From: a virus
DNA: 39,693 nt
Virus record (IMG/VR): IMGVR_UViG_3300006176_000006
Coordinates: 1 to 39,693 of that record
Direction: 5' to 3' (one strand)
The notes under the pieces were generated by a model, which saw only the letters and a list, made by a program, of their open reading frames with translations, was not told where the DNA came from and did not search any database. The position numbers were made by a program, and so were the translations under genes. Positions 11,469 through 28,882 of this stretch are shown piece by piece; within the stretch, counting starts at the first letter, position 1; the number at the start of each line of letters is the position of its first letter.

Positions 11469-11749
11469 AAAGTAAGGACCGTTATTGATCCATCAGGATT
11501 TATTGTAATCGGCGGATCATCTGAATGATCCTTTAGAAGTTCCTCTAACTCGGAGATTGTCGGGTGCGGTTTAGGTCTAGCATCGCGCTTACGGATACAT
11601 TCGATAGCAGCTACAGCAGCCGAGCGAACGCGTTGATCTTGGTCGCCTTTTAAATCACTCCACGACATTGGACGACTTTCTTCTGGAACGTTCTCGTGGA
11701 GTGCTTGTAAGATTGCCCAAGCAACCGCTTCAACTTCTTCGTCTATCAT
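11465..11749 (-). CDS. Hypothetical protein between ejection-protein genes (94 aa)
   Basis: Unrecognised acidic protein. The ATG at 11749 (MIDEEVEAVAWAIL) is preceded by AAGGGA 7 bases upstream; an earlier GTG at 11797 lies inside the neighbouring gene and is less likely. It has an N-terminal helix, a middle with RVRSAAVAAIECIRKR and a short beta-rich tail ending in GSITVLTL. Its stop overlaps the start of the 1989-residue ejection protein (ATGA). It could be a chaperone or minor partner of the ejection proteins, by position only. Confidence 0.65.
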   Translation of the reverse strand: MIDEEVEAVAWAILQALHENVPEESRPMSWSDLKGDQDQRVRSAAVAAIECIRKRDARPKPHPTISELEELLKDHSDDPPITINPDGSITVLTL

Positions 11750-11759
11750 TGTCGATCCC

Positions 11760-13529
11760 TTACTTTGTGGTACTGGTTCCGCCACCTGATGCCCCAAAGA
11801 GTTTGATGTATTCCTCGCGGAGGTAGTAACGGTAGAGTTCAGTGTCGGATGGAACTGGCTTGCCTTCCTTCATTGCCTTGTTGGTGACCGTGTCTCGGAA
11901 CTCTGGTGGTATTTGATCCATTGTTGGCTTGACGTATTGCTTGAACCCGTAGTCTTGAGTATCGTGCCAGTACCAATGATGGTTCATAGTCTGGGTCTGC
12001 AATTGCTTGAAGATCGGGCCGATAACATCCTCGTACTTGGCTGGCTTACCTGTGTTCAACTGCCACTCAGACAGCGCTTCCTGCAACGACCCAACGAAGT
12101 GATTGTAATTGCTCTGCGGATCAGACTTCTGCTTTGGGTCCACGTTCATTGCGTCAAGCTGTGTTGGGAACGCAGCGTGGAGGATTGACATAGCGTTGCT
12201 GACGCGTGGGTCGTCCTTGGGATTTTTGGCGAGCTCGACTTGTTTATTCTGCAAAGCAGCGCGATCCTCTGGTTTTAGCTGCCAAGTCCCAAAGTCCTGT
12301 TCAAGAAACTTCTGTACATCGCTATTCATCAAGCCTTTGGCGTTTACGTTGTTGACCCTCCACGCTTCTGAGAATTGCTTGGATTGGATATTAAAGATGC
12401 GCTGCGCGAGCGTGGATTTGTCATAGTCTGACATCTTTCCAACGATCTTATCAACGCCTGGGAGCGCGAGGAGAGATTGTGTATCAGTGACCTCAGGATG
12501 CTGAGCAATGACATCATTGATAGAGTTCCGCGTCTCAGTTGTATCATTGGTCCGCGCGAACCTATCCATGTAGAGACGATGATCAAGCGCATTCGCAGCC
12601 TCGGTCTGCAATAGCTTGTTGTTTGGATAAAGCTCAGCAGCTTTGGCGCGTACCTCCTCTTGCATTGCCTTAGTGGTTGCGTCGTAGGTGCCGTCAGCTG
12701 GATTGAGATGTGTGCCAACAACACCATTGACGATGTTCGCTGACGCAACCGCGTTGCCTCTGGTCTGAACCAGGCTCTCTAGCGCATCGTACTGATCACC
12801 AAGAACGTCTTTGTTCTGATCCAACATCTGCGTGGCGCGTGCGGGATCAGTATGTGCCACACCTTTTATCTGGCTGGCGACGTGTGCTGCTTGGGCTTTG
12901 CGAACTGCATCTTGTACAATTGGGCTGTTTTCATCGACGCCGTATTTGACCATCGCCGCGTCAGCGACTGTACGAGAGATCAGTCCACGACTTTTCTGGA
13001 ACGTGATGTCGTCTGGATGATCCTCCGCGTCATGAATAGCAAGGTCGGCCTGAGATGACAAGGTCTGAACAGTGTAGTCCTTGTACTGCTGCCCTGCTCT
13101 CGCTGATGACGCGAACACATTCCGCTGATAGAACGGCAGGCTATCTTGATCGAACAGCTTCTGCGCTATCGGTGTCTTAAGCTGATTTCGATACTCCAAC
13201 CTCGTCTGGTTCAGCTGATCAAGATGCGGCTCTAACGCATCGCGCGAGTCCTTGCCTGTACGTGCGTCAAAGGTCGCCTGCATGGGCGCGATCTTGTTGA
13301 CGAAATCCGTCTGCGCCTGTCTCGCGTCATTCTCATTCTGCAATTCCTGCAACGCCATTGCGCGCTGGAACAACTCATTACCATCCTTCTCAACCGACCC
13401 TCCGAGATTTTGCAGGGCCGCACCAATGCTCTCACCAAAGGCCGCGCCAGGGGTGTTGATCCGCAACGGCGGCGTAGGCCGCATGTACGGCTGGGCAGTT
13501 GGGAATGGGACGTAGGGTGCTTGGGCCAT
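11760..13529 (-). CDS. Internal virion/ejection protein, T7 gp15-like (589 aa)
   Basis: By order (adaptor, nozzle, gp13-, gp14-, gp15-, gp16-like) this is the middle ejection protein, expected to help form the channel through the periplasm. The sequence is almost wholly helical, rich in Gln, Ala, Asp and Lys, with no signal peptide. The N-terminus is proline-rich (APYVPFPTAQPYMRPTPP). A repeat-like helical region around residues 190-270 (DPARATQMLDQNKDVLGDQYDALESLV) resembles internal virion proteins of podoviruses. No enzymatic motif is visible. The assignment rests on position, size and composition; direct similarity to T7 gp15 is not obvious. Confidence 0.7.
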   Translation of the reverse strand: MAQAPYVPFPTAQPYMRPTPPLRINTPGAAFGESIGAALQNLGGSVEKDGNELFQRAMALQELQNENDARQAQTDFVNKIAPMQATFDARTGKDSRDALEPHLDQLNQTRLEYRNQLKTPIAQKLFDQDSLPFYQRNVFASSARAGQQYKDYTVQTLSSQADLAIHDAEDHPDDITFQKSRGLISRTVADAAMVKYGVDENSPIVQDAVRKAQAAHVASQIKGVAHTDPARATQMLDQNKDVLGDQYDALESLVQTRGNAVASANIVNGVVGTHLNPADGTYDATTKAMQEEVRAKAAELYPNNKLLQTEAANALDHRLYMDRFARTNDTTETRNSINDVIAQHPEVTDTQSLLALPGVDKIVGKMSDYDKSTLAQRIFNIQSKQFSEAWRVNNVNAKGLMNSDVQKFLEQDFGTWQLKPEDRAALQNKQVELAKNPKDDPRVSNAMSILHAAFPTQLDAMNVDPKQKSDPQSNYNHFVGSLQEALSEWQLNTGKPAKYEDVIGPIFKQLQTQTMNHHWYWHDTQDYGFKQYVKPTMDQIPPEFRDTVTNKAMKEGKPVPSDTELYRYYLREEYIKLFGASGGGTSTTK

Positions 13530-14117: not shown

Positions 14118-14545
14118 CAACGTCTCCTAATCGTAAATGGCCGGAAGCCATTCTCTGGCTCGCCAATCTTTGCGCCAAGCCAGCGTATCCAGCGGATGGC
14201 TTGGGTATTAGTAGTCTCGACATGACCGACGATCCGTGGATAGACCTTCAGCATCTCTTCAACGTAGCGCTGGGAGTAGCGGATGAAGAGGAATTTATGC
14301 TCTTCAACAAGATCGGTCGTGAGTAGCCAAAGATAGGCATTCTCAGAAAGGAAGGTCGGAGGAGCTAGGCCCCAAAGACAAGCAATCTCACCATCAACCA
14401 TTCCGGCCCAAACTTTATCGCTCGCTAGCCACCAGTTGTTGAGAATGGCGACCGCGTTGGCGTTGTCGTAGACTGGACTGCGCTTGATAACTGCAAGGAT
14501 GTCAACGGAATTCTCATGCGCGACCTTGATCTGGACTTGCGTCAT
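14117..14545 (-). CDS. Internal virion protein A-like, GNAT-fold DUF2833 (142 aa)
   Basis: Corresponds by position to T7 gp13, needed for correct assembly of the internal core. The sequence looks like a degenerate GNAT fold of the DUF2833 family: MVDGEIACLWGLAPPTFLSENAYLWLLTT, then EHKFLFIRYSQRYVEEML and a WIRWLGAKIGEPE segment. The acetyl-CoA loop Q/R-x-x-G-x-G/A is not clearly present, so catalysis is doubtful. It overlaps the nozzle gene by four bases. The basic C-terminus (RPFTIRRR) is notable. Confidence 0.75.
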   Translation of the reverse strand: MTQVQIKVAHENSVDILAVIKRSPVYDNANAVAILNNWWLASDKVWAGMVDGEIACLWGLAPPTFLSENAYLWLLTTDLVEEHKFLFIRYSQRYVEEMLKVYPRIVGHVETTNTQAIRWIRWLGAKIGEPENGFRPFTIRRR

Positions 14546-17500
14546 TTAGTATCTCCTACCACCATCTCAGGCATCAGCCCAAGGATCGTTGCAGGAAGGG
14601 GATTTGGCTGGACGATGTAGTAATTGCCAAAGGTATCGGTCTGTGGGTCGAGATTGACACGACCGTCGCCGGTGTAGAGATTAGTGACTGGCTTGTTTTC
14701 TTGGACGTTCAATTGTCCAAGCTGGAAGTCCTTCATCTGCGTGACTGTAGCAAGAGACTTTCCTGCTGCGAGCCCGAGGGTGTCTTTGGTACGAACGGTA
14801 AGGCCAATGATTGACTTGCGCTTGCCTTGAATAGTTGGCTCGCCTAAATCAAGCCGAAGGGTTTGTAGCTGCGGCGAATATGCAAGCCCGAGGGTGATCT
14901 TCGTCGCAGGATTTGGCAGCGTGATCGAGCCGGAGGCTGAGACAGTCAACAGGTTTGGTGCTTGCCCAACCACAACTCCGTCAGCCAAGCCAACAACGTT
15001 CTGACCGATCAGATGACCAAGACCGGTGACGATCGTGATAGGCGTCCATGCTGACCAATTCAGGGTCTGTGGAATAGGGATCGCGGGCGTGACGTATGGG
15101 ATCGTCTGCGTGATCGCTTGCGTGAAATTGCAAGTGACTTGTGAGCCAGAGCCAACAGCCGTGATTGTACCAATGCCGTTCCCTAGTCGGATCACTTGAC
15201 CGATATTACCTGCCGCCCAACCAAGACTAGCAGAGAAGTTGACCACGATCCCTGGACCGAAGACACCAGATGCAGTTGCGGTCACGCCATTCGCGGCCGC
15301 GCTGGTAGGATTGAGACTGGCCAGCCCAGCAAAGAACGGCGCGGTCTGTAACCCAGCATCGACACACCAAGCATCTTCCATACCATAAGGGAAGATGCGC
15401 TCAGCCATGCGCTCGATGTATTGAACCCAGTTACCATTGACGAGACGTTGGATGACGCAGTAGATTGCATCGACGGCGCCAAAGCTGACTTGCTCTGTGA
15501 CTGTGCAGATGGACTTGAACAAGCCCTGCGTGTCTGAGTGTGCCCAGCCAGTCATTTCTTGTTCTTTTTGGAACGTAAGAGATAATAGCGCGCCATCGTT
15601 CCGCACAGCCCAGACGATCTTGAATGGCTCCTCGGCCCAGGCCCATTCGCTAATGAGGAAGCCGTAGAAGAGATGCGAGGACATCACCGTAATGTCAGTG
15701 CCGGTGTAGATTTGGGCGTAGAAGTTGAAGCTCAAGTCTCGGATGATCGAGCCTTTGGATTGCACATAAAGCACGTCGAAGTTTGAAATAATCGGCGGTA
15801 CGTCGTTCGCGCCATTGAATGACTGAGCGTTGGCGGTGATATTAGACGGTGTCACAGGCGCGCCGATCGAGCCGCCATTCACTAGCCACGAGGCACGATT
15901 AGTGAACATAATCAAACCAGCAGGCACTGGCGCAAGGGACTTGATCTGGTTCAACACACCAGATGTGATTGAGGCCGAGATTGCATCACTAGCCTGAATT
16001 GGATCAGAGATATTGAAATTATACGGCGACCCAGTCACGGACATATTAAAGGACTGCAACGCCTTTGGCTGTGACGCGAGCACAAGCCTCTGTTGGAAGA
16101 ACCCTGGTACGGAGGGATTGCCAGCTGAGCCAGAGCCAACGGTTGCGGTAGCAGTAGCTGCGCCAGCTGAGAAGGTGACGTTGGGCGTGGAGGTATAGCC
16201 GCTACCGCCAGTAACAAGAATGACCGCGCCGACGACCCAGTTGGCGTTGAGGATGAACCCGGTGCCTATGCCTGTCGTGTTGACTTGCGCGATAGTTGCT
16301 GGCGCAGTGCCAGAAGTCAGCGATCCTGGATTAGTTACTGAATAAGTTGCAACGCCACCGCCAAAGATGGTAGAGTTGACGCGCACGGTGACGTTACCTT
16401 GAAGTGTGATAATGTCTCCGGTTTGGTAATTACCACCAGCGGTGTTGAGAGTTGTGACTGGCGAGATCAGCGAGGCGTATGCCAACGCTTGCACACCACC
16501 AGCAGAAGGCGGATCAATGGTGACGAGTGGAACAGTCGAGCCAGTGTAGTTGCCTACTGCGCCGAGGATTAGGCTCGTTACTGATGCACCAAGGAATGGA
16601 TTTTGGACAATCGGAGGGGTTTGTGAGAAATCAGGCGCGATGCCTGGGAATGCGTCATTGAAAGACAGCGCGGTGGTGTTGCCGATGAAGCCGAACTGAG
16701 CGCCAGAAGGAATAGCAGTGGTGATAACACTAAGCGCCTTATAGACATTATAACTGACCGCGCCAGCAACCGCGTTCCAAGTGAGAGTGTTGGTGATGCC
16801 TTGTGTGCCGATGAATGAGATATTCGACAACGTCCCAGGAACACTTGGCGCGCTCTCTTGGTTGTTAACATCAAGCGCTGTGACAAGATAGGCATAGTTC
16901 CAACCACCGCCAGCACCAGAGGTTGTAGATGGTACGATACCTCCTGGCGCGGTGATAGTTGGGCCAAAGGTGATCGTTGACAAGGTCCAGTTGTTGGCGG
17001 TGACGAGAGTCAGGACCTGAGGATTGTAGTTCGGATGACAGAGGATCAGGGTTTGGACGTTCTGCGCAAATTTTAATAGCGCAAGGTCGCTGGCGACGTA
17101 AGGAGTGGTGAGAGTGTAGACGCGCTGTGCCTGACCTCCGGAGACGTACGCGCCAAAGCCAGTGGTGTTGATCGCGTTGCCATTGAGGTCGGTGAGCGTG
17201 TACGTGTTCGCGCCAGTACGAACAACGATGTAGTAGTTGCCGTTTAGCTGCGTCATACCTACGACGCCGGTGATGAAAATCCAATCGCCAGTGACGTAAC
17301 CGTGGGCTGCGCTTGTGATAACTCCTGGATTTGCTTGCGACGCACCAGTGATTGTAGTGGCTGCTTCTAGAACGTACGCGCCATTGGAGATAAATCGTAG
17401 ATAGTTCTGGCCGAATTCGAGAACGTAGCTGGTGGTGAAGGAAGCTTGGAATGGGATTAATCGGACTGCGAAAGAGGAGTTGCGAGCTTGGAGAATATAC

Positions 17501-17658
17501 CGAAACCCAGCGCGCGTGCTAGCACCACCACGGTAGTCAACATAGAAGTTCCGGAGAAGCTGCGCAGCAGAGTGGTACTTCGCGATATCAACGCGCGCGA
17601 ATAGGTCCGGTGACCACTCACCGCCAGAGAAAGCAGTTTGGATGGCAGGTTGTGCCAC
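14542..17658 (-). CDS. Tail nozzle protein, gp12-like (1038 aa)
   Basis: Large tail tube protein forming the distal nozzle. The N-terminus AFSGGEWSPDLFARVDIAKY and GGASTRAGFRYI is the typical start of podovirus tail tubular protein B relatives. Inserted beta-rich modules follow: an E1-FCCH-like segment around residues 105-180 (GYVTGDWIFITGV...NTYTLTDLNG), a fibronectin-like one (SYNVYKALS) near 300, and a Gly-rich repeat module around 370-510 (GGSGYTSTPNVTF). The conserved core returns near 640 (SIIRDLSFNFYAQIYTGTDI, then WAWAEEPFKIVWAVRNDG). At 1038 residues it is larger than T7 gp12 (about 794) because of these modules. The start lies 5 bases after the adaptor stop. Confidence 0.85.
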   Translation of the reverse strand: MAQPAIQTAFSGGEWSPDLFARVDIAKYHSAAQLLRNFYVDYRGGASTRAGFRYILQARNSSFAVRLIPFQASFTTSYVLEFGQNYLRFISNGAYVLEAATTITGASQANPGVITSAAHGYVTGDWIFITGVVGMTQLNGNYYIVVRTGANTYTLTDLNGNAINTTGFGAYVSGGQAQRVYTLTTPYVASDLALLKFAQNVQTLILCHPNYNPQVLTLVTANNWTLSTITFGPTITAPGGIVPSTTSGAGGGWNYAYLVTALDVNNQESAPSVPGTLSNISFIGTQGITNTLTWNAVAGAVSYNVYKALSVITTAIPSGAQFGFIGNTTALSFNDAFPGIAPDFSQTPPIVQNPFLGASVTSLILGAVGNYTGSTVPLVTIDPPSAGGVQALAYASLISPVTTLNTAGGNYQTGDIITLQGNVTVRVNSTIFGGGVATYSVTNPGSLTSGTAPATIAQVNTTGIGTGFILNANWVVGAVILVTGGSGYTSTPNVTFSAGAATATATVGSGSAGNPSVPGFFQQRLVLASQPKALQSFNMSVTGSPYNFNISDPIQASDAISASITSGVLNQIKSLAPVPAGLIMFTNRASWLVNGGSIGAPVTPSNITANAQSFNGANDVPPIISNFDVLYVQSKGSIIRDLSFNFYAQIYTGTDITVMSSHLFYGFLISEWAWAEEPFKIVWAVRNDGALLSLTFQKEQEMTGWAHSDTQGLFKSICTVTEQVSFGAVDAIYCVIQRLVNGNWVQYIERMAERIFPYGMEDAWCVDAGLQTAPFFAGLASLNPTSAAANGVTATASGVFGPGIVVNFSASLGWAAGNIGQVIRLGNGIGTITAVGSGSQVTCNFTQAITQTIPYVTPAIPIPQTLNWSAWTPITIVTGLGHLIGQNVVGLADGVVVGQAPNLLTVSASGSITLPNPATKITLGLAYSPQLQTLRLDLGEPTIQGKRKSIIGLTVRTKDTLGLAAGKSLATVTQMKDFQLGQLNVQENKPVTNLYTGDGRVNLDPQTDTFGNYYIVQPNPLPATILGLMPEMVVGDTK

Positions 17659-17663
17659 TTAGA

Positions 17664-18821
17664 TTAGTACCCCCACAAAGGTCCCCAGTCGAGATTTGGC
17701 GAGAACTCGAAATTCGGCCCAGAGACAATGCCACGTTGGCGAATGAAATCAGGTGTCACATCGTTGACAGTCAGCCCTTCGTTACCATCTGCCTTCCGCG
17801 CCTCCATGATTAGATCATTAGAAATCTTGACCCCTACTTGGATCATGGACTTGTCGCCTTGCAGCGCTGGCACAAGTCGCGCGCCCAAAATCCCGGCCCA
17901 TGCGTCGATGAACATTTGGTCCATGACGTTTGGATCGGTGATCTGGGTATTATAACAGAGGATCGCTGGGCCGGTTTGGGTCAGGATGACGCGTTGTGGA
18001 GCTTGCGATCCAAAGGTTAGATTGAAGGTCGCGCCGGAACCATTGCCGGATGAGAATTGCTGGGAGACCGGATTAGACTGAATTGAGAAGTAGCTACCTC
18101 CGATTGGGGTCGCTTCGCCTTGAACTTGATTGATAACAGCTACAGACGTAACCGAACCACCTGAAGCGCCAGTCACAAGAAGCTGTACAGGCGCGCCAGC
18201 TTCCATTGTAAACTGAGCAAAGGCAGTTGGCTGGCCGGTCGGCGCAGTGTTTTGCTGAAAGGTGTAGGATGGCTGAACAAGAGTAATGATTTCACCAAGG
18301 ACGTACCCAGCACCGCCAGAGATAGTGATGGCGGCGGCAGTGACGCCAAAGAAGTTATCTGTCGTAACCTCGAACTTAACCGGCGGCCCAGTCCAGGAGT
18401 TATAACCCGAACTAGTCACAACACCAGGAGGATAGATTGGGATTGAGCCAAAGCCCTGTGTGATCGTCTGCGGGATCACCTTACGAACGCGCAAGCAGTC
18501 AACAGGGTATTGATATTCATAGGCCCACCCAGGTGGTGGGATACCGGGTTGCCAGAACGGCGCGGCGGCGTTGGGATTTTCTGGCTGTCCTGGCGCAGCA
18601 GTGATGTAGACAAGTGGCGCGTACTTGGTGGCGCAATTCCACGGCGCCATTCGATTGAGATTATCACGGAGACGGAACATGATCAGGTTGGCGTTGATTG
18701 CCTCGTTGGACGAGAGCGCGTTGTTGCCAGCTGCCGCGTTGGCGAGTTCCGTCGCCGTGACTGTTGTACGGGTACCGATAATCTGCAACGCCTGATTGAC
18801 GATATCCGTGTTGGTAGTCAT
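17664..18821 (-). CDS. Tail adaptor protein, gp11-like (385 aa)
   Basis: Joins portal and nozzle in the short tail. The N-terminus (TDIVNQALQIIGT, later FRLRDNLNRMAPWNCATKYA) and YEYQYPVDCLRVRKVIP are typical of tail tubular protein A (T7 gp11). The C-terminus DQMFIDAWAGILGARLVPAL also fits. T7 gp11 has about 196 residues. Here an extra beta-rich insertion, about residues 145-275, carries GGAGYVLGEIITL and GSGATFNLTFG and resembles the module inserted in the nozzle protein. The start is TAATG, coupled to the small gene upstream. Confidence 0.85.
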   Translation of the reverse strand: MTTNTDIVNQALQIIGTRTTVTATELANAAAGNNALSSNEAINANLIMFRLRDNLNRMAPWNCATKYAPLVYITAAPGQPENPNAAAPFWQPGIPPPGWAYEYQYPVDCLRVRKVIPQTITQGFGSIPIYPPGVVTSSGYNSWTGPPVKFEVTTDNFFGVTAAAITISGGAGYVLGEIITLVQPSYTFQQNTAPTGQPTAFAQFTMEAGAPVQLLVTGASGGSVTSVAVINQVQGEATPIGGSYFSIQSNPVSQQFSSGNGSGATFNLTFGSQAPQRVILTQTGPAILCYNTQITDPNVMDQMFIDAWAGILGARLVPALQGDKSMIQVGVKISNDLIMEARKADGNEGLTVNDVTPDFIRQRGIVSGPNFEFSPNLDWGPLWGY

Positions 18822-19790: not shown

Positions 19791-21338
19791 CTAATTGAAA
19801 TGAACCATGGCTTTACCAATTGGGTTCAGCGCGGTACAGGTTCCAGTAAGGTCCCAGGCGGTATAGTCGCCAGCAGCGATGGCGGTGGAGGAGAGGCTAG
19901 TGAAGGAGACGACTGTATGCGCTGCGGTGATAGTGACCGCGCCGATGGTAGTTGGTGCGTTGCAGGTGGTGGATGTACCGCACTCGTACATTGTGATGAC
20001 TGGGTTGACCGAGCAGGTGAAGATGTTGGAGGAGAAGGCGAGGTTGTCTACCGTAGCCGCATTTGGCCAAAGAGTAAATCCGCCTTTGCCAGTGGTGATG
20101 GAACCAATCGTACCTTGAGTATAGATATCAATGGTCTTGTTAGCTGTTGGTATCTGAGAAAATGTTGGTACGCCGCTGGAATTCTCAGTAAGGTAGCAGG
20201 TGCCGCTGTTGCAGCCTGCTACGGATTGCCACCAGCCTGAACCGTTGTTATAGACGATATCACCGGCACGGGTGGGAGTGGGCATCGCGCTATTAAGGAA
20301 TTTGCCATCGGTCTGAAGATCACCGGCATTATCTTGAAAGCCGAGAGATAACTGACAGGCAACACTACCTGGAATGACGGAGTTGCAAGATGCCGCAGCA
20401 GCTGTGATCATATAACCAAGGCCGGTTAAGATCGCGCGTGTTCCTGTAGCTGTACCAGAAGTTGTCCAGGCAGAGAGATTAATATTTAAATCGCCGGCTG
20501 CTGTAATAAACGCGCCGTTGAATGCGGGAGTGCCAGTTAAAGTTGTTAGTGCACCTCCATTGAAAGTAGTTCCACTTGCAAAGTCCCAATGCTTAGTACA
20601 GTTTGCAGTTATATTTTCACCGCCGCCAGTAAGATTACCAACAGCATTCCCACCCAATGAAAGATGCTCAGCAGAAGCCCCACAACTACCCCACGTTATA
20701 GTATCCATATCAAGGATTATCTGCTGCAATCCTTGAAGACCAATAGAGCCATTACCAAGATTAACTTGTTGACATTTTACAACAACTTCTCCAACATCAT
20801 CAGCTAAGACACCTACATCGTTATCTGGCACAGATAGAATAACGGCCGTTGTAGCACTACAGTCACCAAGTAAAGTTGTTAATGCGGAAGCGCTGCCACC
20901 ACTATTTCCCTTAACAGTGCACAAAGCAAGATCGGCATTAACACTGTTATACGTTCCATGAGCTTCGTTAATATTGAAACCGCCACTTAAATAGGTTGCA
21001 ACTTGCGTCCTAAAAGAACAAGCAGTTTTTAGTTGGCAAGCATTTGGTGCTGTAAGACAGTCACCAGTACCAGTTGCAGTTGGTGCAGCATAGAGATTGA
21101 CACCACCAGCAAGTGGAAGATAGACACCATTGCCAAGAGTAGCAGCAGAAGTCCAGACTGGGATATAGTTAATAGTACCCGATCCAGTAATCGCCCCTGC
21201 CGCACTATAAAATCCAGGCACACTTGGCGCGCCAGTCAGGTTCCCGCAGAGAGAATTGGCTGGCGCAACGCCAGAGCATTGTGCAAATGCAGCTGATGGA
21301 ACCAGTAATAGCGCAAGCGCAAGAAGCCATTTCTTCAT
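19791..21338 (-). CDS. Sec-exported Cys-rich protein, fibre-like (515 aa)
   Basis: Carries a textbook signal peptide (MKKWLLALALLLVPSAAFA, cleavage before Q). The mature start QCSGVAPANSLCGNLTG...PGFYS resembles the start of tail-fibre-like proteins in alphaproteobacterial phages and prophages. The rest is Gly/Thr/Ala/Asn-rich beta sequence with about 20 cysteines, many in close pairs (NSGTCYL, YECGTSTTC), which fits an oxidising compartment. The ATG at 21338 overlaps the preceding stop (ATGA); a GTG 15 bases upstream is not needed. It could be a fibre that visits the periplasm, or a secreted protein acting on the host surface. I cannot tell whether it is a virion protein. Confidence 0.7.
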   Translation of the reverse strand: MKKWLLALALLLVPSAAFAQCSGVAPANSLCGNLTGAPSVPGFYSAAGAITGSGTINYIPVWTSAATLGNGVYLPLAGGVNLYAAPTATGTGDCLTAPNACQLKTACSFRTQVATYLSGGFNINEAHGTYNSVNADLALCTVKGNSGGSASALTTLLGDCSATTAVILSVPDNDVGVLADDVGEVVVKCQQVNLGNGSIGLQGLQQIILDMDTITWGSCGASAEHLSLGGNAVGNLTGGGENITANCTKHWDFASGTTFNGGALTTLTGTPAFNGAFITAAGDLNINLSAWTTSGTATGTRAILTGLGYMITAAAASCNSVIPGSVACQLSLGFQDNAGDLQTDGKFLNSAMPTPTRAGDIVYNNGSGWWQSVAGCNSGTCYLTENSSGVPTFSQIPTANKTIDIYTQGTIGSITTGKGGFTLWPNAATVDNLAFSSNIFTCSVNPVITMYECGTSTTCNAPTTIGAVTITAAHTVVSFTSLSSTAIAAGDYTAWDLTGTCTALNPIGKAMVHFN

Positions 21339-21781
21339 TGTGCATTGACCCAAGTGAGCGAGGCAGGGACAGGTTCCAGAACGAACCCACCGAAGTTGGA
21401 GGTGATTTGAATTTGAGTAAGGCTCATCACTGTCTCAACAACAGAAGCAGGTTTGATAGTGATTGCGTGTGCGGCAGCATTGCCTCCAACATCAACAATG
21501 GTGATATTGATCCGCTGATGTCGCCCTGGTTGAGTGACTGGGTTGGATGGCTGTGATACAGACGGAAGGATCAGAACGACCGCGCCAACACAGTTAACTT
21601 GGACGAAATTAGTGGACCAGTCAAGGGTGTAGGTACCAGCGGCGGTGATAGTGTTCGTATTACTCCCCTGTGCAAGGAAGTTCTTGTACGGAATGTTCTG
21701 CCAGCCAACAGACGGGCCCATATAGACCCGCTCCCATTGACGGTTGGTCCCTCCTTGGTCGGTATCCGTCTGCGAAGGCAT
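21335..21781 (-). CDS. Hypothetical beta-rich structural protein (148 aa)
   Basis: Unrecognised cytoplasmic protein with no signal peptide. It starts polar (PSQTDTDQGGTNRQWERVYMGPSVGW), then is mostly beta strands (TITAAGTYTLDWSTNFVQVNCVGAVVLILPSV, INITIVDVGG). This pattern is common in phage baseplate, fibre-anchor and decoration proteins. The ATG at 21781 has GGAGG 5 bases upstream; the GTG directly before it is less likely. It overlaps its neighbours by four bases or fewer. It may be the virion-side partner of the exported fibre-like protein. Confidence 0.6.
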   Translation of the reverse strand: MPSQTDTDQGGTNRQWERVYMGPSVGWQNIPYKNFLAQGSNTNTITAAGTYTLDWSTNFVQVNCVGAVVLILPSVSQPSNPVTQPGRHQRINITIVDVGGNAAAHAITIKPASVVETVMSLTQIQITSNFGGFVLEPVPASLTWVNAQ

Positions 21782-22446
21782 CACGGCCTCCGGAGATTAC
21801 CAGGGATTTTGATCGGGGTCTTAGCGCCAAGCTTGGCCAGTTCAGCAGCCTTGGCTTGATTAGCAAGGTCTTCGGCGGTGGGATTGGGAGGGAGGGGCTC
21901 GTCATCGACAACGGCCTTAGCTTCGCCAGCCATGCGTGCTTCGAGCGCGAGGTTCTTCTCGGCAAGTTCTGCGACGAGTTTCTCCATCTTCGCCAGACGT
22001 TCGTTGTCGATGCCATTGGTTGAGACAGGATTGGCAGAAGGCATCGGCGCGCGAGACTGCACAGAAGATAGTTGCCTTTCGAGAGTATCGAGGAGGGACT
22101 GAGTGAAGTTGCCAGGAAGTGACTCGATCGGATGTATCCACTTCGATGAAAGCTCTTCCACTTTGGCGCGGGCCTCGTCGTCGAGCGGCGTCATGTCAGG
22201 AGTGGGCTCGCCTTCGAAGATGATGTCGAGAGGATATTTCTCATCATACTTTGACGAGACGATGATCTCGCCTGGGTAGTTGCAGCAGGTCGCATCTCGA
22301 GGATCGAGGATCATTGGGACTTTGAACCTGCGTCGAACCATGCGGTTGTTGACGAGGGATTGCTCAGTGTATTCCCACTCGGTCAATGAGCCATCCCATT
22401 GAAGGGCATTGATGTAGTGACCGGTGTTGAGACGATAACGGGCCAT
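21781..22446 (-). CDS. Hypothetical protein with coiled coil (221 aa)
   Basis: Unrecognised. The N-terminal 90 residues look folded (MARYRLNTGHYINALQWDGS, then RRRFKVPMILDPRDATCCNYPGEIIV). A central coiled coil (about residues 145-175, NERLAKMEKLVAELAEKNLALEARM) and a Pro/Ala/Lys tail follow. A coiled coil after a small head suggests a trimeric or dimeric connector such as a fibre anchor. It has no signal peptide, unlike the genes on either side. AAGGAA precedes the ATG. Confidence 0.65.
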   Translation of the reverse strand: MARYRLNTGHYINALQWDGSLTEWEYTEQSLVNNRMVRRRFKVPMILDPRDATCCNYPGEIIVSSKYDEKYPLDIIFEGEPTPDMTPLDDEARAKVEELSSKWIHPIESLPGNFTQSLLDTLERQLSSVQSRAPMPSANPVSTNGIDNERLAKMEKLVAELAEKNLALEARMAGEAKAVVDDEPLPPNPTAEDLANQAKAAELAKLGAKTPIKIPGNLRRP

Positions 22447-22458
22447 TAGTGGTTCCTT

Positions 22459-23397
22459 TCAGAAGTTCCAACCGTTTGTTGCGCTGCGCATATTGGCGAG
22501 CATGGCTTGATAGGATGAGTTGAGATCGGCGGGCCAGATGCCGGCTTCACAGACAAAACCTGCTATAAGAGCCTGCGCGCCGGAACTCCGACCCATGAGA
22601 TATTCCGGCCCGGTCAATGCTGTCGTGCCATTCGTCGATGTAGATGTATTTGCGCTAGAGTCTATTGCCAACAACGGTGCCGTACCGCTGGCCACATTGA
22701 GCAAAGCATGAAAAGCACTATCGGCCGCCGTCAGTGAAACAGCAGTTCCATTGTTGACCCCGAGCGTATTTGCCGAGGCCGTAAAATTTATGGGGTTGGT
22801 GTTAGTATCATTCGTTAGAACTTTTTGAACCGTTGTAAAGCTGCCGGTGCGTTCGGTTACTGCGGTTAGAGTGAAGGGAGCCGCTTGCGCAACATTTCCT
22901 GCAGTTGCCAATCGTACAGCCGCATTTCCCGTCCCCGCCGCACACGGCAACCCATTCTGCGCATTGAACGTCAGCCCCGGCATGTTGGCGAGCGTCGCCT
23001 GGACCACGTCGTTGCCATTTCCAGTCTGATCGTTCATTTTGGAAACGCTGCACGCTATAAGACAAGCTGTAGAATTGCAAGCAGTCGTATTGACATAACC
23101 AGTGGAAAGGAGCGGCAGCACGCAGCTCACCGAGCCGGTGGCCGTATCAACAACCGTGCAAGCCGCACCACCGCCAGAGGCGTAAGCTGCGTTGTAGGAT
23201 CGGCCGCAAGAGTAGAAGGCGATGGCACCTGACGTGATATCCCCAGGACCTTGATAGCCAGCGACTGGTGCGGCATCCAGTGCTGAGCGATTTATAAAAA
23301 CTCCTGGCGGGAAACCGGGCAGCACGGCTTGTGCACAGGCCCCTTGCTGCCATAGGCAGACAATAGCCAGTAGCCAAAGACCAAAGGCGCGGCGCAT
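22459..23397 (-). CDS. Sec-exported protein with GH54/arabinofuranosidase-B-like domain (312 aa)
   Basis: Signal peptide MRRAFGLWLLAIVCLWQQGACA, cleavage likely before QAV. The mature part resembles the catalytic domain of fungal alpha-L-arabinofuranosidase B (concanavalin-like fold): a GDITSGAIAFYSCGRSYNAAYASG opening, paired cysteines (AACTVVDTATGSVSCV, TACNSTACLIAC), and the loop KMNDQTGNGNDVVQA. Length fits one such domain. I cannot identify catalytic acids with confidence, so it may bind glycan rather than cut it. It could recognise or trim host surface polysaccharide, matching the O-antigen gene two genes downstream. Its start overlaps the preceding stop (TAATG). Confidence 0.65.
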   Translation of the reverse strand: MRRAFGLWLLAIVCLWQQGACAQAVLPGFPPGVFINRSALDAAPVAGYQGPGDITSGAIAFYSCGRSYNAAYASGGGAACTVVDTATGSVSCVLPLLSTGYVNTTACNSTACLIACSVSKMNDQTGNGNDVVQATLANMPGLTFNAQNGLPCAAGTGNAAVRLATAGNVAQAAPFTLTAVTERTGSFTTVQKVLTNDTNTNPINFTASANTLGVNNGTAVSLTAADSAFHALLNVASGTAPLLAIDSSANTSTSTNGTTALTGPEYLMGRSSGAQALIAGFVCEAGIWPADLNSSYQAMLANMRSATNGWNF

Positions 23398-24059
23398 TAG
23401 CTAAATTTCCCGTAGCAAGCGACTGACACGTTTGCGCCTGTCGTTACCTTCCATGCTCCAGCAGTACTGACCGCGCCAACTGGAATGGCGATTGGTACAA
23501 GGTTCGACACGCTACTAGCACCGCCAGGGAATGCAATGACGTTGGTACCAGCAGCGTTCGTATTATCAAATACCGTCACGACACCAGGAGAGGTCGAGGT
23601 TGGATAGATCACGCAATGGGAAAGATAGTCACCGATAGCACCGGTCGAGGATTGTAAAACAGTACCTGTTTGAGACGCCGCGACAGTCAGATAGAAACTA
23701 CCACCATTTACAACACCAACACCTCCCTTTACAAGAGCGGCACCGGCATTAGTGGCTTGATCAACTGCTATGCCAACACGTTGAGTGCCTGTGCCGATTG
23801 CGCCTGTACCAGTCGAGACTGTAACACCGTTGACTTTGGCGATGTTGACGTCTTGTGTTCCACTTGGGACAGTGGCAAGGAGCAGCCGCCCGCTGTTATC
23901 ACATTGAACAAAGCCAACGTTGGTGTTGGCTAGAGTCGGCGGGACGCTGTTATAGACACAAAGGCCAGCAATAGCCCCTGCTGGCGGCGGCCATGTTGAT
24001 ACCTGTGCAATTGCTGGCGGCGCCCACAGCGTCAGGGCTAAGGCGATCCATTTCAGCAT
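23397..24059 (-). CDS. Sec-exported beta-rich protein (220 aa)
   Basis: Unrecognised exported protein. Signal peptide MLKWIALALTLWAPPAIA, cleavage before QVS. The mature sequence is rich in Gly, Val, Thr and Ala with alternating strands (GTQDVNIAKVNGVTVSTGTGAIGTG..QRVGIA), a motif often met in phage fibre or decoration proteins, and four cysteines. The ATG at 24059 has GGGAAAG upstream; an ATG 15 bases earlier is in frame but falls inside the preceding gene. The signal peptide is confident; the role is not known. Confidence 0.65.
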   Translation of the reverse strand: MLKWIALALTLWAPPAIAQVSTWPPPAGAIAGLCVYNSVPPTLANTNVGFVQCDNSGRLLLATVPSGTQDVNIAKVNGVTVSTGTGAIGTGTQRVGIAVDQATNAGAALVKGGVGVVNGGSFYLTVAASQTGTVLQSSTGAIGDYLSHCVIYPTSTSPGVVTVFDNTNAAGTNVIAFPGGASSVSNLVPIAIPVGAVSTAGAWKVTTGANVSVACYGKFS

Positions 24060-24060
24060 C

Positions 24061-24297
24061 TTAATCTTTCCCATGATTGATATCCCAACTAAACGGCCAC
24101 AACCGCATCGCGGTCTCGCGGTCGATCCAGCCTCGATACAGGCCGATGTCTACGAAGGTCGCTAAGGAGCCTAGCAAAACTCCAATCACGAGACAGGTGA
24201 CCCGCAACCAGAAGCCCAGCGAATGCCAAGGGCGGGCAGTGGAGGGGGAAGGAGAATAAGCAGCAGATGAGGAAGGCGACGTAGCAGGGCCAAGCAT
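24061..24297 (-). CDS. Small membrane protein overlapping the O-antigen gene (78 aa)
   Basis: Unrecognised. One membrane span (about residues 27-48, LRVTCLVIGVLLGSLATFVDI) lies between a Pro/Ser-rich start and an Arg/Trp-rich end (GWIDRETAMRLWPFSWDINHGKD). More than 200 bases overlap the 3' end of the O-antigen polymerase-like gene in another frame. The ATG at 24297 has only a weak upstream site (AGAAG); an in-frame start at 24408 would give 115 residues. The stop is one base before the next gene's ATG, which favours it being translated. It could be a regulator or partner of the O-antigen protein. Confidence 0.5.
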   Translation of the reverse strand: MLGPATSPSSSAAYSPSPSTARPWHSLGFWLRVTCLVIGVLLGSLATFVDIGLYRGWIDRETAMRLWPFSWDINHGKD

Positions 24298-25159
24298 TGC
24301 TTCTAACCATCGTCGTTGGAAGGAGTAATAGAAATGTAGCGAAGACTGATCCCACTCCATATTGATAGGCAAGGTCGAGGAATTCATTGTGTGCGTAAGC
24401 TGGGGCATAGTATTGGCCTTTGAAGTGGATCAGGACCGCTTCGATCGCGCCAGGGCCATGGCCCCAGAAGTCGAGGAAGTGATAGAGGACTCGCCAGACG
24501 ATCCAGCGAAAGTCATCAGCGGAGTCGTGCTGAACGAGGGCGGCCCATGTTAAGGGACAAGCCGCGGAATAGAGGGTTGATTGCGAGGGCCTGCACCATC
24601 CAAGGACGAGTCCAACGAATAAAGCAAGCCAAGCAGCGCGAGACTGGCTGAGAATAAGACCAGGAAGAAGTAGGACAGTGAGGAGCCAAAGGCGGTGCGG
24701 AAGGAGTAGGAGGATCGTGAGGGCACAGCCTTCTCCGAGGATGATGGGGTTGAATACAAGACCAGATGGGCGGCAAGGAACAAATTCAAGAACCCAATCA
24801 AGACCTAAAAGTTGGGCAATACACAAAAGGCTGCTAATGCCGAAACCAAGACCAAGGCCAATAGCAACAAGCCTAAGATTGTCAAGCTGAGTGCCAGCAT
24901 AGAACACTCCTGCGAGGATGGCAAGTTGCCAAAGCGCGCTTAGTCCTGTGACTGGATTATCGACCCAAGACAGCGACCAACAGGCGTAGAGCAGGAAGGT
25001 CATTCCTAAGAGGATAAAAACGGGAGAGGACTGCTTCGCCCCCTCCCGCCAAGTTACACACGGCAAAGCACAAGAAAGAACTGACCAGCCAGTCGCAATC
25101 GCAGCCCCAGTGATACCTGGGATGTATGCGATTGGGATGAGGAAGGCCAGGAGAAGCAT
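24089..25159 (-). CDS. O-antigen polymerase/ligase-like membrane protein (356 aa)
   Basis: Integral membrane protein with about ten hydrophobic segments and the pattern of the Wzy/WaaL (O-antigen ligase, Wzy_C) family. It has LILSQSRAAWLAL at residues 168-180, a central periplasmic loop with RWIVWRVLYHFLDFWGHGPGAIE, and the family motif YAHNEFLDLAYQYG at about 255-268. Late spans end with LFSFPLHCPPLAFAGLLVAGH. Such enzymes join or transfer O-polysaccharide in the periplasm, so a phage copy could change the host's surface sugar and receptors. At 356 residues it is slightly short. The last 30 residues (RRHRPVSRLDRPRDRD) look non-native because another gene overlaps there. It starts TAATG after a 56-residue gene. 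Confidence 0.8.
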   Translation of the reverse strand: MLLLAFLIPIAYIPGITGAAIATGWSVLSCALPCVTWREGAKQSSPVFILLGMTFLLYACWSLSWVDNPVTGLSALWQLAILAGVFYAGTQLDNLRLVAIGLGLGFGISSLLCIAQLLGLDWVLEFVPCRPSGLVFNPIILGEGCALTILLLLPHRLWLLTVLLLPGLILSQSRAAWLALFVGLVLGWCRPSQSTLYSAACPLTWAALVQHDSADDFRWIVWRVLYHFLDFWGHGPGAIEAVLIHFKGQYYAPAYAHNEFLDLAYQYGVGSVFATFLLLLPTTMVRSNAWPCYVAFLICCLFSFPLHCPPLAFAGLLVAGHLSRDWSFARLLSDLRRHRPVSRLDRPRDRDAVVAV

Positions 25160-25329
25160 TAGTCAGGCTTTCTCATATTGAATAACGTAGCCAAAGCATT
25201 TGCGGCGTTGCAAGCTGCTTGAGAATACTTCATTGCCTGATCATGATCGTTTGCCATTGAAGCCTTTTCAATCAATGCCATCACGTGATCTTGATCAGAC
25301 CTTTGTTCTTTTGGCTTATCTTCTATCAT
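25159..25329 (-). CDS. Small helical protein (56 aa)
   Basis: Unrecognised cytoplasmic protein, first gene after a terminator. It is fully helical: EQRSDQDHVMALIEKASMANDHDQAMKYSQAACNAANALATL. Similar short proteins with an AMKYSQAACNAANAL-like segment occur in many alphaproteobacterial phages. GGAG lies 10 bases before its ATG, and its TAA overlaps the O-antigen gene start, so it controls or accompanies its translation. Confidence 0.65.
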   Translation of the reverse strand: MIEDKPKEQRSDQDHVMALIEKASMANDHDQAMKYSQAACNAANALATLFNMRKPD

Positions 25330-25344
25330 CGGGTTCTAGCTCCG

Positions 25345-25378
25345 AAAAAGGTTGAGGCTTATAGGCCGGTGCCTCAAC
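25345..25378 (-). terminator. Intrinsic terminator inside the late region
   Basis: Read leftward: GTTGAGGC, a 12-base loop, GCCTCAAC, then CTTTTT. The 8-bp stem is perfect. It follows the exported-protein gene ending at 25391 and precedes the 56-residue gene and the O-antigen gene, so these may be expressed less, or from a separate start, than the head genes. Confidence 0.75.
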
Positions 25379-25390
25379 GATGACCGGGTA

Positions 25391-26206
25391 TTAGCGTGCT
25401 CGACGACAGGTGACTGAGCCATAGGCCCAGAGTTGGGAAGTGGCGAAGGTGGCGCCATCGACCAAGAAGATCGAGGTAGTGGAGGCGATGGAGAACCGCG
25501 CTGGGCCGAGCTTGAGATCGACGCCATTGGTAGAGATCGCTGACGCCGGGACCACTGTCGTGGTAGCGTCAGTGCCTTGAGTACCAAGGACACCGTCGGT
25601 GGTCACGAGAGACGCAGAGAGCCGCGTTGCGGTGGTAGTAGCCGAGAGTTGATGCGCGGCTGTACCACGACAGTCCCAATCGCCAGCGGTCAGAGAGACA
25701 GAGCCGAGAGTGATCGAGGAGTTGGTCGTGATTTGCTTGGCGTTGGTGAGAGTGACGTTGATGGTTTGAACTTCACCAACGTTACCAGCTGTGGCATTGT
25801 CGTTGGTCGTGGTACCTTGCTGCTGCCCAGCCGAGATGACATTGTAGGTCCAGTTCGTCCCGGTGATTGGCCAGAAGGCGATACGGCCAAAGGTACCACA
25901 GAAGGTGATCGACGCGGACGAGCCATTGATCGTATCGCCTGATTGAGGGGCGTAGACGATGCAGGAGTTCGCGCCACCGACATTGCCTTGGGCGTCGATA
26001 GTGTCCAAAGTGCCGTTGATATTGTACGCACCTGCATAAGGGAGCGTCCAGGTTCGATTGGTAGTGAGGGCAACTGTCGGGATCAGATACTTGTCGGTGG
26101 AGAGGATTGTGTAGTTGGCATTACCGACAAGGGTCTGTGGTGAGACAGCGGCGATGGCAGAACCAGCAAGAGTGACAAAGCCAAGAGCAAGAAGGAGTTT
26201 TCTCAT
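25391..26206 (-). CDS. Sec-exported beta-rich protein (271 aa)
   Basis: Unrecognised exported protein. Signal peptide MRKLLLALGFVTLAGSAIA, cleavage before AVS. The mature part is Thr/Asn/Gly/Ser-rich with many strands (NYTILSTDKYLIPTVALTTNRTWTLPYAG), typical of phage fibre or cell-surface proteins. It includes a low-complexity TTTNDNATAGN stretch and a basic end (VTCRRAR). The leader is nearly the same as that of the next gene upstream (both read M-K/R-K-LLLALGF), suggesting leader duplication. It overlaps that gene by ATGA and is followed by a strong terminator. Confidence 0.65.
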   Translation of the reverse strand: MRKLLLALGFVTLAGSAIAAVSPQTLVGNANYTILSTDKYLIPTVALTTNRTWTLPYAGAYNINGTLDTIDAQGNVGGANSCIVYAPQSGDTINGSSASITFCGTFGRIAFWPITGTNWTYNVISAGQQQGTTTNDNATAGNVGEVQTINVTLTNAKQITTNSSITLGSVSLTAGDWDCRGTAAHQLSATTTATRLSASLVTTDGVLGTQGTDATTTVVPASAISTNGVDLKLGPARFSIASTTSIFLVDGATFATSQLWAYGSVTCRRAR

Positions 26207-26856
26207 TGGCTAGCCTCCGTCCAAACCCAGGTCACATTGACCAAGCCAGACGATGGCGAGGTCGAGTTGAGATTGACGCAGAGGGCCTCAGTTGCCTTAC
26301 GCAGGGTCGGTTTCTCGATTGTGATGCCAGCGTCGAACTCAAACAAGGACTCAGTTAAGGCGACACCATTCGTGCCATCGGTCTTTGACAGGATCAAGTT
26401 CTCAACAGCAAGGATACCCGGCGAGGAGTCGACGATGGTAGGATTGGCAGTCCAGGCATTGAGCGTTGCTTTAGCCGCTGAGTTTGCAGAGTCTAGAGGA
26501 TAGGCAACTGGCAAGGCTGTGCTGGTAGCTGGTGTTCCGCCGGTGTCCAAGGACGCACGCTTCATTAGCACGACCGGGACGATGATTTGTGTTCCAGCTG
26601 TGCCGCTGACGCGTAGGCGTTGAAGACGGATGACGGTATTGGTCGCGCCTTGGATGCAGGTGATGTCGGTGGCTGAAGCAGCCGGAGCGATGCCAATACC
26701 GGAGGCGGCATAGGAGTTGACGAGGGCCTCTTGAGGACAGGCGAGGCCAACTTGTGGGACAGTGTTGACACCGCCGACTCCAACGCAGGGGACTTGGGCG
26801 ACAGTGGGCACAGCCCATAGAGCCAAGAACCCAAGGGCGAGAAGGAGCTTCTTCAT
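26203..26856 (-). CDS. Sec-exported protein (217 aa)
   Basis: Unrecognised exported protein. Signal peptide MKKLLLALGFLALWAVPTVA, cleavage before QVP. The mature part begins with CVGVGG and LACPQEAL, then strands such as TNTVIRLQRLRVSGTAGTQIIVPVVLMKRAS. It ends in LCVNLNSTSPSSGLVNVTWVWTEAS. Cysteines (four) and the beta composition fit a periplasmic or surface location. A similar layout (receptor-like beta sandwich) is seen in phage head decoration or surface proteins, but no family is assigned. It overlaps the preceding gene by ATGA. Confidence 0.65.
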   Translation of the reverse strand: MKKLLLALGFLALWAVPTVAQVPCVGVGGVNTVPQVGLACPQEALVNSYAASGIGIAPAASATDITCIQGATNTVIRLQRLRVSGTAGTQIIVPVVLMKRASLDTGGTPATSTALPVAYPLDSANSAAKATLNAWTANPTIVDSSPGILAVENLILSKTDGTNGVALTESLFEFDAGITIEKPTLRKATEALCVNLNSTSPSSGLVNVTWVWTEASQ

Positions 26857-27292: not shown

Positions 27293-27826
27293 TTAGTTGG
27301 AGACCGTGATGCCAGCGGGGTAGCCGCCCATCACAGCGTTGTTGGTGGCGTTGTACATCTGGTCCATACGATCGAGCACGATGTAGGATTGGATCACGCC
27401 AGCAGTGCCAGTGGCCGCGCCGATGACGTACTGCATACGCAGGAAGCGCGGCACGCCAACGCCAGCAGGCGGGCGAGGCATGTCCATGTCGTAGATACGT
27501 GCGCCTTGGACGAGAGTAGCGAGCGCGTAGGCTGGCGAGGTCCACCAAGTTGTGTAGGAGCCCGGTGCGCCTGAGCCGTTGTCGGGTGCGCCTTGGAGTG
27601 CAGCTTGGAGAGTCATCGCCCCGCCGGACGTGGCAGTGGTGGTGACTTGAACCAAGAGCTTCAGCGCAGGGTCATCACCAATACCGATATCACGGGCGCC
27701 CTGCAAATTTGCGAGGACAGGAATGCCAGCCATATGGAGGTCGATAATGTTGGTGGAGTTGTAGGTGGCAGCGACCTGTGCCAAGGAGAAGGCGCTGTCG
27801 AATTGAAGGAATGCGTCAAGGATCAT
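27293..27826 (-). CDS. Capsid cement protein, Bbp16-like (177 aa)
   Basis: Resembles the Bbp16 family of capsid cement proteins of Bordetella phage BPP-1 relatives. The start MILDAFLQFDSAFSLAQ and the STNIIDLHMAG..RDIGIGDDPALKLLVQV stretch are characteristic. The body is beta-rich, ending in SYIVLDRMDQMYNATNNAV. In that family the protein clamps capsomers from outside and stabilises the expanded shell. AGGAG precedes the ATG, and it follows the major capsid gene after 15 bases, as in BPP-1-like phages. The identification is from recalled family pattern. Confidence 0.75.
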   Translation of the reverse strand: MILDAFLQFDSAFSLAQVAATYNSTNIIDLHMAGIPVLANLQGARDIGIGDDPALKLLVQVTTTATSGGAMTLQAALQGAPDNGSGAPGSYTTWWTSPAYALATLVQGARIYDMDMPRPPAGVGVPRFLRMQYVIGAATGTAGVIQSYIVLDRMDQMYNATNNAVMGGYPAGITVSN

Positions 27827-27841: not shown

Positions 27842-28882
27842 TCAGATCGTGGCTTCGTTGTTCAGTATCGCATCGCAAGTACGTATCGGGATACCTCTGA
27901 ACGTCGTGATCGGCTTACCATCGAACTCCTCAATTCTGAGTAGTACGTTGGTCTTATTCATAGCTTGAAGGTCGAGGTAAGTACGGATCACACGATTACA
28001 GTAGATGACCGTACGGCCCATCGAGGCCCGGACTTGGTCTGTGTCCGAGGTCTGGATCGTGGTCGCGGTAGTCGGCGCAGTGGGCAGGCGGTAGAGCGCG
28101 CGAACCAAGAGATTGATCAGGTTCGCGGCGCTAACACCAGTCAGCTGCGTCACGTCAACATTGGCGATGCGCGCGACATAGCGCCAATCTCGGAGGACCA
28201 AGCCGATTTCCCATTTGAAGTGATCGCGGTAGGCTTGGTAGGTGTTGTTGCTCGCGTCAGTGACCGGCCACTCGCCCATATCCCGGTGTTGCAAACCGGT
28301 GATTTTGCCTTTGGGGAAGGTGGCATGGAGAGTGTCATCGCCCCAAACGCCGACCCAGATTGAGGTATTGGTCGAGGCTGCACCACCTCCGCTCAAAACA
28401 TTGGCAGCGGTCTGGGAGTTGGCGGTGTTAGAGGTCGAGTAGCGAGGCGCCAGCCCAGTAAACCGCTCTGGGTTGATGAACTGGTTGCCGTAGATCAGGG
28501 TTGACGCGACCTGCTGGGACATGCCCTCCAAAAACGCTTTGACTTCCGAGAGTCGGAATTCAGCAGTATTGCCGTTGAGATCGGCGATGTCTTTGTCGAT
28601 CACCGCGTAGGTTTCCAGGTTGCCGACGGTGTCAACGATCTGGGCAGTGGTCGATTTCGCATTCGGCACGCCTTGGTTCAAGAAGCGCCAAGTTGCCTGC
28701 GGGAGGCCGGTGCGAACGGTGGTCTTATGACCGGTCGGGAGATTGCCCTCGATGACGAGCATGTCTTCGAGGATTTCGTTGGTTTGGGACAAGAGTTCGA
28801 TGATACGAGCGACCTTGTAGCCGTCGTCCATGCGCTTGGCCCAATCAGCATAGGTGATTGCTGAGGTGCCGAGGGTTGCCAT
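27842..28882 (-). CDS. Major capsid protein (346 aa)
   Basis: HK97-fold-type major head protein of the BPP-1/Bbp17 group. Recognisable pieces are the N-terminal helix DWAKRMDDGYKVARIIELLSQTNEILEDML, GNLPTGHKTTVRTGLPQATWRFLNQGVP, the spine-helix region SEVKAFLEGMSQQVASTLIYGNQFINPERFTGLAPRY, and the C-terminal VLLRIEEFDGKPITTFRGIPIRTCDAIL. Length and gene order (portal, scaffold, capsid, cement) agree. Expression is expected to be high; the start follows the scaffold stop by only 3 bases. Confidence 0.9.
   Translation of the reverse strand: MATLGTSAITYADWAKRMDDGYKVARIIELLSQTNEILEDMLVIEGNLPTGHKTTVRTGLPQATWRFLNQGVPNAKSTTAQIVDTVGNLETYAVIDKDIADLNGNTAEFRLSEVKAFLEGMSQQVASTLIYGNQFINPERFTGLAPRYSTSNTANSQTAANVLSGGGAASTNTSIWVGVWGDDTLHATFPKGKITGLQHRDMGEWPVTDASNNTYQAYRDHFKWEIGLVLRDWRYVARIANVDVTQLTGVSAANLINLLVRALYRLPTAPTTATTIQTSDTDQVRASMGRTVIYCNRVIRTYLDLQAMNKTNVLLRIEEFDGKPITTFRGIPIRTCDAILNNEATI

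Follow-up and report, generated by a model that had tools for sequence, protein, structure and literature searches.

Here we analyse a window of 39,693 nucleotides (the whole of the 39.7-kb IMG/VR virus record IMGVR_UViG_3300006176_000006) in which five genes for proteins with Sec signal peptides form a block between the capsid and tail genes of a podovirus-like phage. We read this block as probably being a receptor-binding and decoration module that has been recoded for export, whose products would be incorporated into virions by docking at lysis; the largest protein is the candidate tail fibre or spike, and most of the small ones are probably further fibre or decoration modules. With about even confidence, this also points to a post-lytic or periplasmic assembly route for tailed phages, in which exported fibres and decoration proteins would be mounted on virions only at lysis.

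The block was originally predicted from the sequence alone, and all five genes were recovered on the minus strand at their predicted starts. Together with the anchor gene on which the argument turns, they are as follows.

26203-26856, minus strand: signal-peptide protein 1, 217 amino acids, jelly-roll domain, 4 cysteines in the mature part; signal at 26797-26856, MKKLLLALGFLALWAVPTVA, predicted cleavage before Q
25391-26206, minus strand: signal-peptide protein 2, 271 amino acids, 4 cysteines; signal at 26150-26206, MRKLLLALGFVTLAGSAIA, predicted cleavage before A; distant homologue of the signal-less fibre-anchor domain of 21335-21781
23397-24059, minus strand: signal-peptide protein 3, 220 amino acids, 4 cysteines in the mature part; signal at 24006-24059, MLKWIALALTLWAPPAIA, predicted cleavage before Q; an upstream start at 24074 is possible
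22459-23397, minus strand: signal-peptide protein 4, 312 amino acids, 8 cysteines; signal at 23332-23397, MRRAFGLWLLAIVCLWQQGACA, predicted cleavage before Q; arabinofuranosidase-B-type/virion structural family (phrog_10356, E 1.5e-5)
21335-21781, minus strand: signal-less fibre anchor, 148 amino acids; relatives have this domain as the N-terminal part of their full tail fibres, and here it stands alone
19791-21338, minus strand: signal-peptide protein 5, tail-fibre or spike candidate, 515 amino acids, 18 cysteines in the mature part; signal at 21282-21338, MKKWLLALALLLVPSAAFA, predicted cleavage before Q; 4-nucleotide overlap with the anchor gene
21240-21281, minus strand: conserved mature N-terminus of protein 5, QCSGVAPANSLCGN, pattern QCNGxFPxNTxCGN; proposed docking motif that signal peptidase would expose

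Signal prediction by heuristic returned an n-h-c signal in every one of the five proteins, with a positive n-region, a hydrophobic core and an AxA-type site for signal peptidase I. Each gene start either has a Shine-Dalgarno-like sequence upstream or overlaps the preceding gene, and these ribosome-binding sites and 4-nucleotide overlaps, together with recurrence in independent contigs, rule out a sequencing or gene-start artefact. Across the whole window the heuristic gave only two other candidates, one at 3737-4417 in the lysis region and a low-scoring open reading frame at 37221-37577. The predicted resemblance of one protein to arabinofuranosidase B holds via a homologue in a related contig (L003:15907-17601, PF09206, E 1.2e-9), and tblastn of four of the window's signal-peptide proteins against named phages gave nothing useful, with a single weak S-CBS4 match for one.

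The signal-peptide block is a general trait and not peculiar to the window. The comparison drew on the 80 best of 551 viral contigs with a related capsid, to which one genome-derived contig (L082) was added, and across 82 loci 102 of 258 clusters of proteins of at least 100 amino acids carried a signal within the block, as against 10 of 183 upstream (Fisher p 7e-18) and 1 of 34 in the tail region (p 4e-6). Under a strict scan, which required at least one signal-peptide gene no more than 4.5 kb from the capsid gene, 48 of 53 related metagenomic loci with the block were positive and the other five gave no strict signal-peptide reading frame; the corresponding count among other phages of this capsid type was 1 of 22, the sole positive being a tailspike. 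The leaders persist while the gene content of the block varies strongly between loci, and we judge them real and selected because M1, A(-1) and Q(+1) are the only near-invariant positions in an alignment of 75 largely dissimilar signal-peptide proteins. Three probably false signal calls (L062, L081:9223 and L007:8998) were omitted from the family scan.

If the mature proteins fold in an oxidising compartment, their cysteines are expected in pairs, and the mature parts have the composition suited to such a compartment: the count is even in 162 of 167 complete signal-peptide proteins (39 superfamilies), with every member even in 34 superfamilies. The bias holds for cysteine-containing clusters at 60% identity (92 even, 8 odd, p 3e-19) and for single-member superfamilies with cysteines (20 of 22 even, p 1e-4), whereas signal-less proteins of the same loci stand at even:odd ratios of 82:114, 61:75 and 6:15. 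One apparent signal-less, cysteine-rich exception (L052:6428) was dismissed, as an upstream start gives it a signal. Chance hydrophobic N-termini are ruled out by the counts for the block against the rest, by the relatives that lack the block and by cysteine parity, and it is very likely, judging from these sequence patterns, that the signals of the block proteins are real and used for export. That the hydrophobic N-termini are instead parts of virions assembled in the cytoplasm, for example hydrophobic plugs, would fit the normally cytoplasmic location of virions and the status of leader cleavage as a prediction only, but we find this scarcely credible given the AxA sites followed by Q, leaders that are divergent in sequence yet constant in physics, a cysteine parity confined to signal-peptide proteins and signal-less homologues that lack the cysteines.

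The largest of these exported proteins, at 19791-21338, lies in a tail-fibre slot. The anchor domain beside it is the N-terminus of long signal-less proteins in four relatives (L040, L058, L061 and L071), three of which have PHROG tail-fibre matches (best E 9e-22). A stand-alone anchor is followed, from an overlapping start, by a signal-bearing cysteine-rich protein in 16 of 18 cases; the exceptions are L127, a weak anchor match with a short follower, and L038, where the follower is a signal-less spike with homology (E about 1e-12) to the phiV10 tail fibre and to Bbp9 of BPP-1. These followers and fusions define three states of the slot, namely a fused signal-less fibre, an anchor with a signal-less spike and an anchor with a signal-bearing fibre. 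The signal-bearing fibres also have the tail-fibre plan of a conserved N-terminus and a strongly variable body: Q1, C2, G4, C12, G13 and P22 are invariant in 14 of them whose bodies are otherwise dissimilar. Shigella phage Sf6 gp14 and the phiV10-like tail fibre likewise join a conserved N-terminal attachment part to a variable body. Some relatives' signal-peptide proteins carry a fibre repeat, DSTNxxASTxFV, immediately past the cleavage site, and in several of these proteins the repeat includes a cysteine pair; a signal-bearing protein of L082 matches a tail fibre family (phrog_38233, E 1.5e-15). A profile of the Bbp9-type spike, which does find L038, L048, L061, L068 and L071, is without a match both in the window and in 16 related records, the majority of them 40-52 kb long. 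Taken together, these comparisons lead us to favour 19791-21338 as a distal tail fibre or spike and 21335-21781 as its virion anchor. Recent acquisition of the fibre gene is suggested by its third-position GC content, 0.40 as compared with 0.71 in the capsid gene.

The principal competing explanation is that the signal-peptide proteins are exported effectors, that is, secreted or periplasmic decoys and enzymes that would act with a Wzy-like polymerase of the block to remodel the host surface, exclude superinfecting phages or keep progeny off debris, in which case the fibre-like architecture would mark a soluble decoy with tail-fibre ancestry. Export signals and paired cysteines suit such effectors, as do the GDSL-lipase, pectate-lyase, BNR or arabinofuranosidase domains in some relatives' signal-peptide proteins; however, carbohydrate enzymes are equally typical of virion tailspikes. 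Effectors would also leave the window and many near relatives without an identifiable receptor-binding protein, and the signal-bearing fibre is coupled to an anchor that relatives fuse to signal-less tail fibres. We consider this explanation rather unlikely.

A further argument against soluble effectors, and for virion fibres that pass through Sec, comes from GP7-type prophages of acetic acid bacteria, whose tailspikes belong to a different family with the N-terminal motif PxWxQNYxPTxxEW and are a case independent of the window's fibre family. This tailspike lacks a signal peptide in three genomes (Bombella mellum, Acetobacter musti and Saccharibacter sp. EH611) and bears one in eight copies (Saccharibacter floricola DSM 15669, Bombella pluederhausensis TMW 2.2543 and six more, carried by other genomes of the family), where the Sec signal stops a few residues ahead of the motif. 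Since the motif is kept with or without a signal, its role is independent of export and is presumably attachment. One of the signal-bearing prophage tailspikes has sequence matches to a Klebsiella phage protein at E 3e-7 and, within the range E 3e-4 to 5e-4, to the tailspike of Sf6 (E 4e-4) and to a phiV10-like tail fibre (E 3e-4). Known tailspikes of the Sf6 and phiV10-like kind have no signal peptide, whereas here the attachment motif is preceded by a Sec signal and the mature proteins mostly have an even number of cysteines. In two prophages (L211 and L213) the head and tail operons appear complete, and the signal-bearing tailspike lies between the two tail genes; in L213 (reverse complement 9716-13240) two tandem signal-bearing tailspikes of one family are found there. 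The Bbp9-type spike was not found in these acetic acid bacterial genomes, in a search that had no positive control. From a comparison of the two fibre families, gain or loss of the signal was apparently not a single event and has affected at least two families with no relation to each other.

For the small signal-peptide proteins, evidence of a place in the virion is weaker than for the fibre. In the family of 26203-26856, every scored member with a signal has an even mature cysteine count; a cysteine pair at alignment columns 142/297 is relocated jointly to 144/295 in L160, L170 and L053, and a further pair towards the N-terminus comes and goes as a unit. Such joint shifts, gains and losses are the pattern expected of a disulphide that links adjacent strands. 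Short signal-less homologues (L158, L165, L168, L171 and L172) have the domain with no cysteines and none of the family's pairs, the long signal-less fusions L159 and L173 contain two cysteines apiece, and the anchor to which protein 2 (25391-26206) is distantly related, signal-less and in the same genome, has one. A place in the virion is probable for the small jelly-roll proteins as well, because signal-less jelly-roll homologues (L159, L165, L168 and L171) lie within apparent structural clusters of other phages and the predicted jelly-roll model has its closest fold matches among other small phage proteins; against the PDB the model gave weak capsid and short-fibre matches only.

These same two observations count against a mixed arrangement, in which the large fibre alone joins the virion, the host envelope being the target of the small signal-peptide proteins and of the Wzy-like protein. 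What favours that arrangement is the gene content of three relatives with signal-less fused fibres: directly after their Bbp16-like gene, L058 (1958-2386), L061 (2329-2763) and L071 (11919-12353) keep one small four-cysteine signal-peptide protein, so that the small proteins occur independently of signal-bearing fibres. We regard the mixed arrangement as improbable. Signal-bearing proteins of 428-1038 amino acids with the same jelly-roll domain occur in three further contigs (L162:5379-8495, L163:7227-8513 and L164:6990-8609) that have no match to the other window proteins tested, and the trait may be wider than the set described here. Single-protein scans of viral contigs with the fibre, the Wzy-like protein or signal-peptide protein 1 found almost nothing, while alignment queries did succeed; protein 1 and the anchor gave marginal partial matches only against 385 genomes of the class of a Telmatospirillum metagenome-assembled genome.

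Inside the block, two further genes have no signal peptide.

24089-25159, minus strand: membrane protein of the Wzy_C (O-antigen ligase/polymerase) superfamily
21781-22446, minus strand: MARYRL-type protein; related prophages encode a protein like it between Bbp16 and the tail tube gene, and its position suggests the bbp15 equivalent of BPP-1

An O-antigen ligase-like protein among the signal-peptide genes was part of the original prediction, and the assignment stands at the level of the family, five of whose seven members match Wzy_C (best E 5e-10). The window copy alone reaches E 0.0028, under the Pfam cut-off, and a crude hydropathy scan gave 5-7 segments, where the Wzy_C type has about 10-12 transmembrane helices; a Wzy profile found no relative in the PDB. 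The polymerase probably alters the host O-antigen, an assignment by analogy that is plausible for a Wzy-like gene because of known seroconverting phages such as D3 and epsilon15 (PMC12373910). D3 seroconversion requires three proteins (PMC12373910), and we identified no acetylase or inhibitor of the seroconversion type in the window. In the seroconversion genes of D3, epsilon15 and phiV10 (beta-polymerase, O-acetylase, inhibitor), as in the window, a polymerase-like membrane protein lies near fibre genes; the likeness is one of kind, and the window's gene differs in lying within the structural operon among signal-peptide genes. The exported-effector explanation also draws on this Wzy_C gene inside the block, on the seroconversion of D3 and epsilon15 (PMC12373910) and on the O-acetyltransferase gene beside the phiV10 tail fibre.

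The original prediction had offered two ideas for the block, a programme that modifies or coats the host envelope and a route by which fibre proteins mature in the periplasm. Envelope modification is plausible for the Wzy-like gene, with its seroconverting precedent, and possible for the small signal-peptide proteins, but the suggested release of progeny from receptors and block of re-adsorption drew no support from the tests made. Periplasmic maturation of fibres is the better supported idea, at least for the large protein, given its slot, the signal-less fibres and tailspikes of relatives, the lack of a BPP-1/phiV10-type tailspike elsewhere in the record and the prophage tailspikes with and without a signal. 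Under this route, late in infection the anchor (21335-21781) would be made in the cytoplasm and built into virions, while the fibre would be translated from the start codon that overlaps the anchor gene and sent through Sec. Signal peptidase I would then cut the fibre to expose its conserved N-terminus, and the mature fibre would fold in the periplasm with disulphide bonds. At lysis, fibreless virions would meet the fibre, whose exposed N-terminus would dock on the anchor; the Wzy-like polymerase would alter the host O-antigen separately from this fibre route.

Several points weigh against an exported fibre that joins the virion. The accepted site of tailed-phage assembly is the cytoplasm, a compartment from which export withdraws the fibres. 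The protein at 19791-21338 has no PHROG or Pfam match of its own, and its AlphaFold model, at a pLDDT (predicted local distance difference test) of 42, is too poor for a trimeric beta-rich fold, such as a beta-helix, to be judged from it. The signal calls come from our own heuristic (charge, hydrophobic core, AxA site and hydropathy), applied equally to controls, and not from SignalP. Incomplete IMG/VR records are possible, another receptor-binding protein could exist where one tailspike type is absent, and the roles of the small signal-peptide proteins could lie outside the virion.

The setting of the block is a GP7-type (epsilon15/BPP-1-like) podovirus late region, with a terminase, portal, protease, GP7 capsid, Bbp16-like protein, tail proteins and internal virion proteins, and its capsid protein is at most 55% identical to those of the nearest named phages. 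The genes that border the block are listed below.

27842-28882, minus strand: major capsid protein of the GP7 type (epsilon15 gp7/BPP-1 Bbp17), PF20911 E 1.1e-132, 49% identity to BPP-1 Bbp17; upstream border
27293-27826, minus strand: Bbp16-like protein downstream of the capsid gene, PF21190 E 8e-13
17664-18821, minus strand: tail protein, tail tube A-like (BPP-1 Bbp14 position), phrog_394 E 4.5e-26; downstream border

Bordetella phage BPP-1 and Escherichia phage phiV10 share with the window the capsid, Bbp16-like, BPP-1-type portal, terminase, tail and internal virion protein genes, in matching order. They differ in having no signal-peptide block between bbp16 and bbp14, where the window has one, and in carrying signal-less fibre genes after the ejection proteins (bbp9/mtd in BPP-1, p25 in phiV10); the BPP-1 fibre genes come after the long ejection protein, whereas in the window a 1989-amino-acid protein is followed directly by the endolysin. 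That protein (5499-11468, minus strand) has an LPD22 domain and a GNAT acetyltransferase-like segment. A large tail gene (14542-17658, minus strand) also lies on the tail side of the block, and residues 114-180 of its product match Pfam E1_FCCH (E 1.3e-9), a domain name unexpected in a phage tail protein. Beside the lysis genes, 3737-4417 (minus strand) encodes a sixth signal-peptide protein of 226 amino acids (ADLPPRPLLKAPPPV..., C-terminus KPFSF), which we take to resemble a small alphaproteobacterial outer-membrane beta-barrel protein; such a protein would be consistent with a role like that of Lom and would be a clue to the host.

Virion proteins with cleaved Sec signals are familiar from filamentous phages, whose pIII and pVIII join virions that assemble in the inner membrane; here, in contrast, the phage is tailed, with heads packaged in the cytoplasm. 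Lom (PMC12309495) and SAR endolysins (PMC10820202) are phage proteins that use host export signals, as are the Rz/Rz1 spanins. All of these are products of single lysis or lysogenic-conversion genes and not fibres. We found no description of Sec-exported tail fibres in the open-access literature, subscription papers being outside that search. In the textbook view, the virions of tailed phages are completed in the reducing cytoplasm. If the proposed route is true, disulphide-stabilised receptor-binding proteins become possible, co-infecting phages could swap fibres at lysis, and infectivity of the phage would depend on the host's Sec, signal peptidase and Dsb systems. Annotation pipelines may also mistake such fibres for proteins that bacteria secrete. 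The trait is open to experiment, as prophages of the cultured Saccharibacter floricola DSM 15669 and Bombella pluederhausensis TMW 2.2543 appear to carry it.

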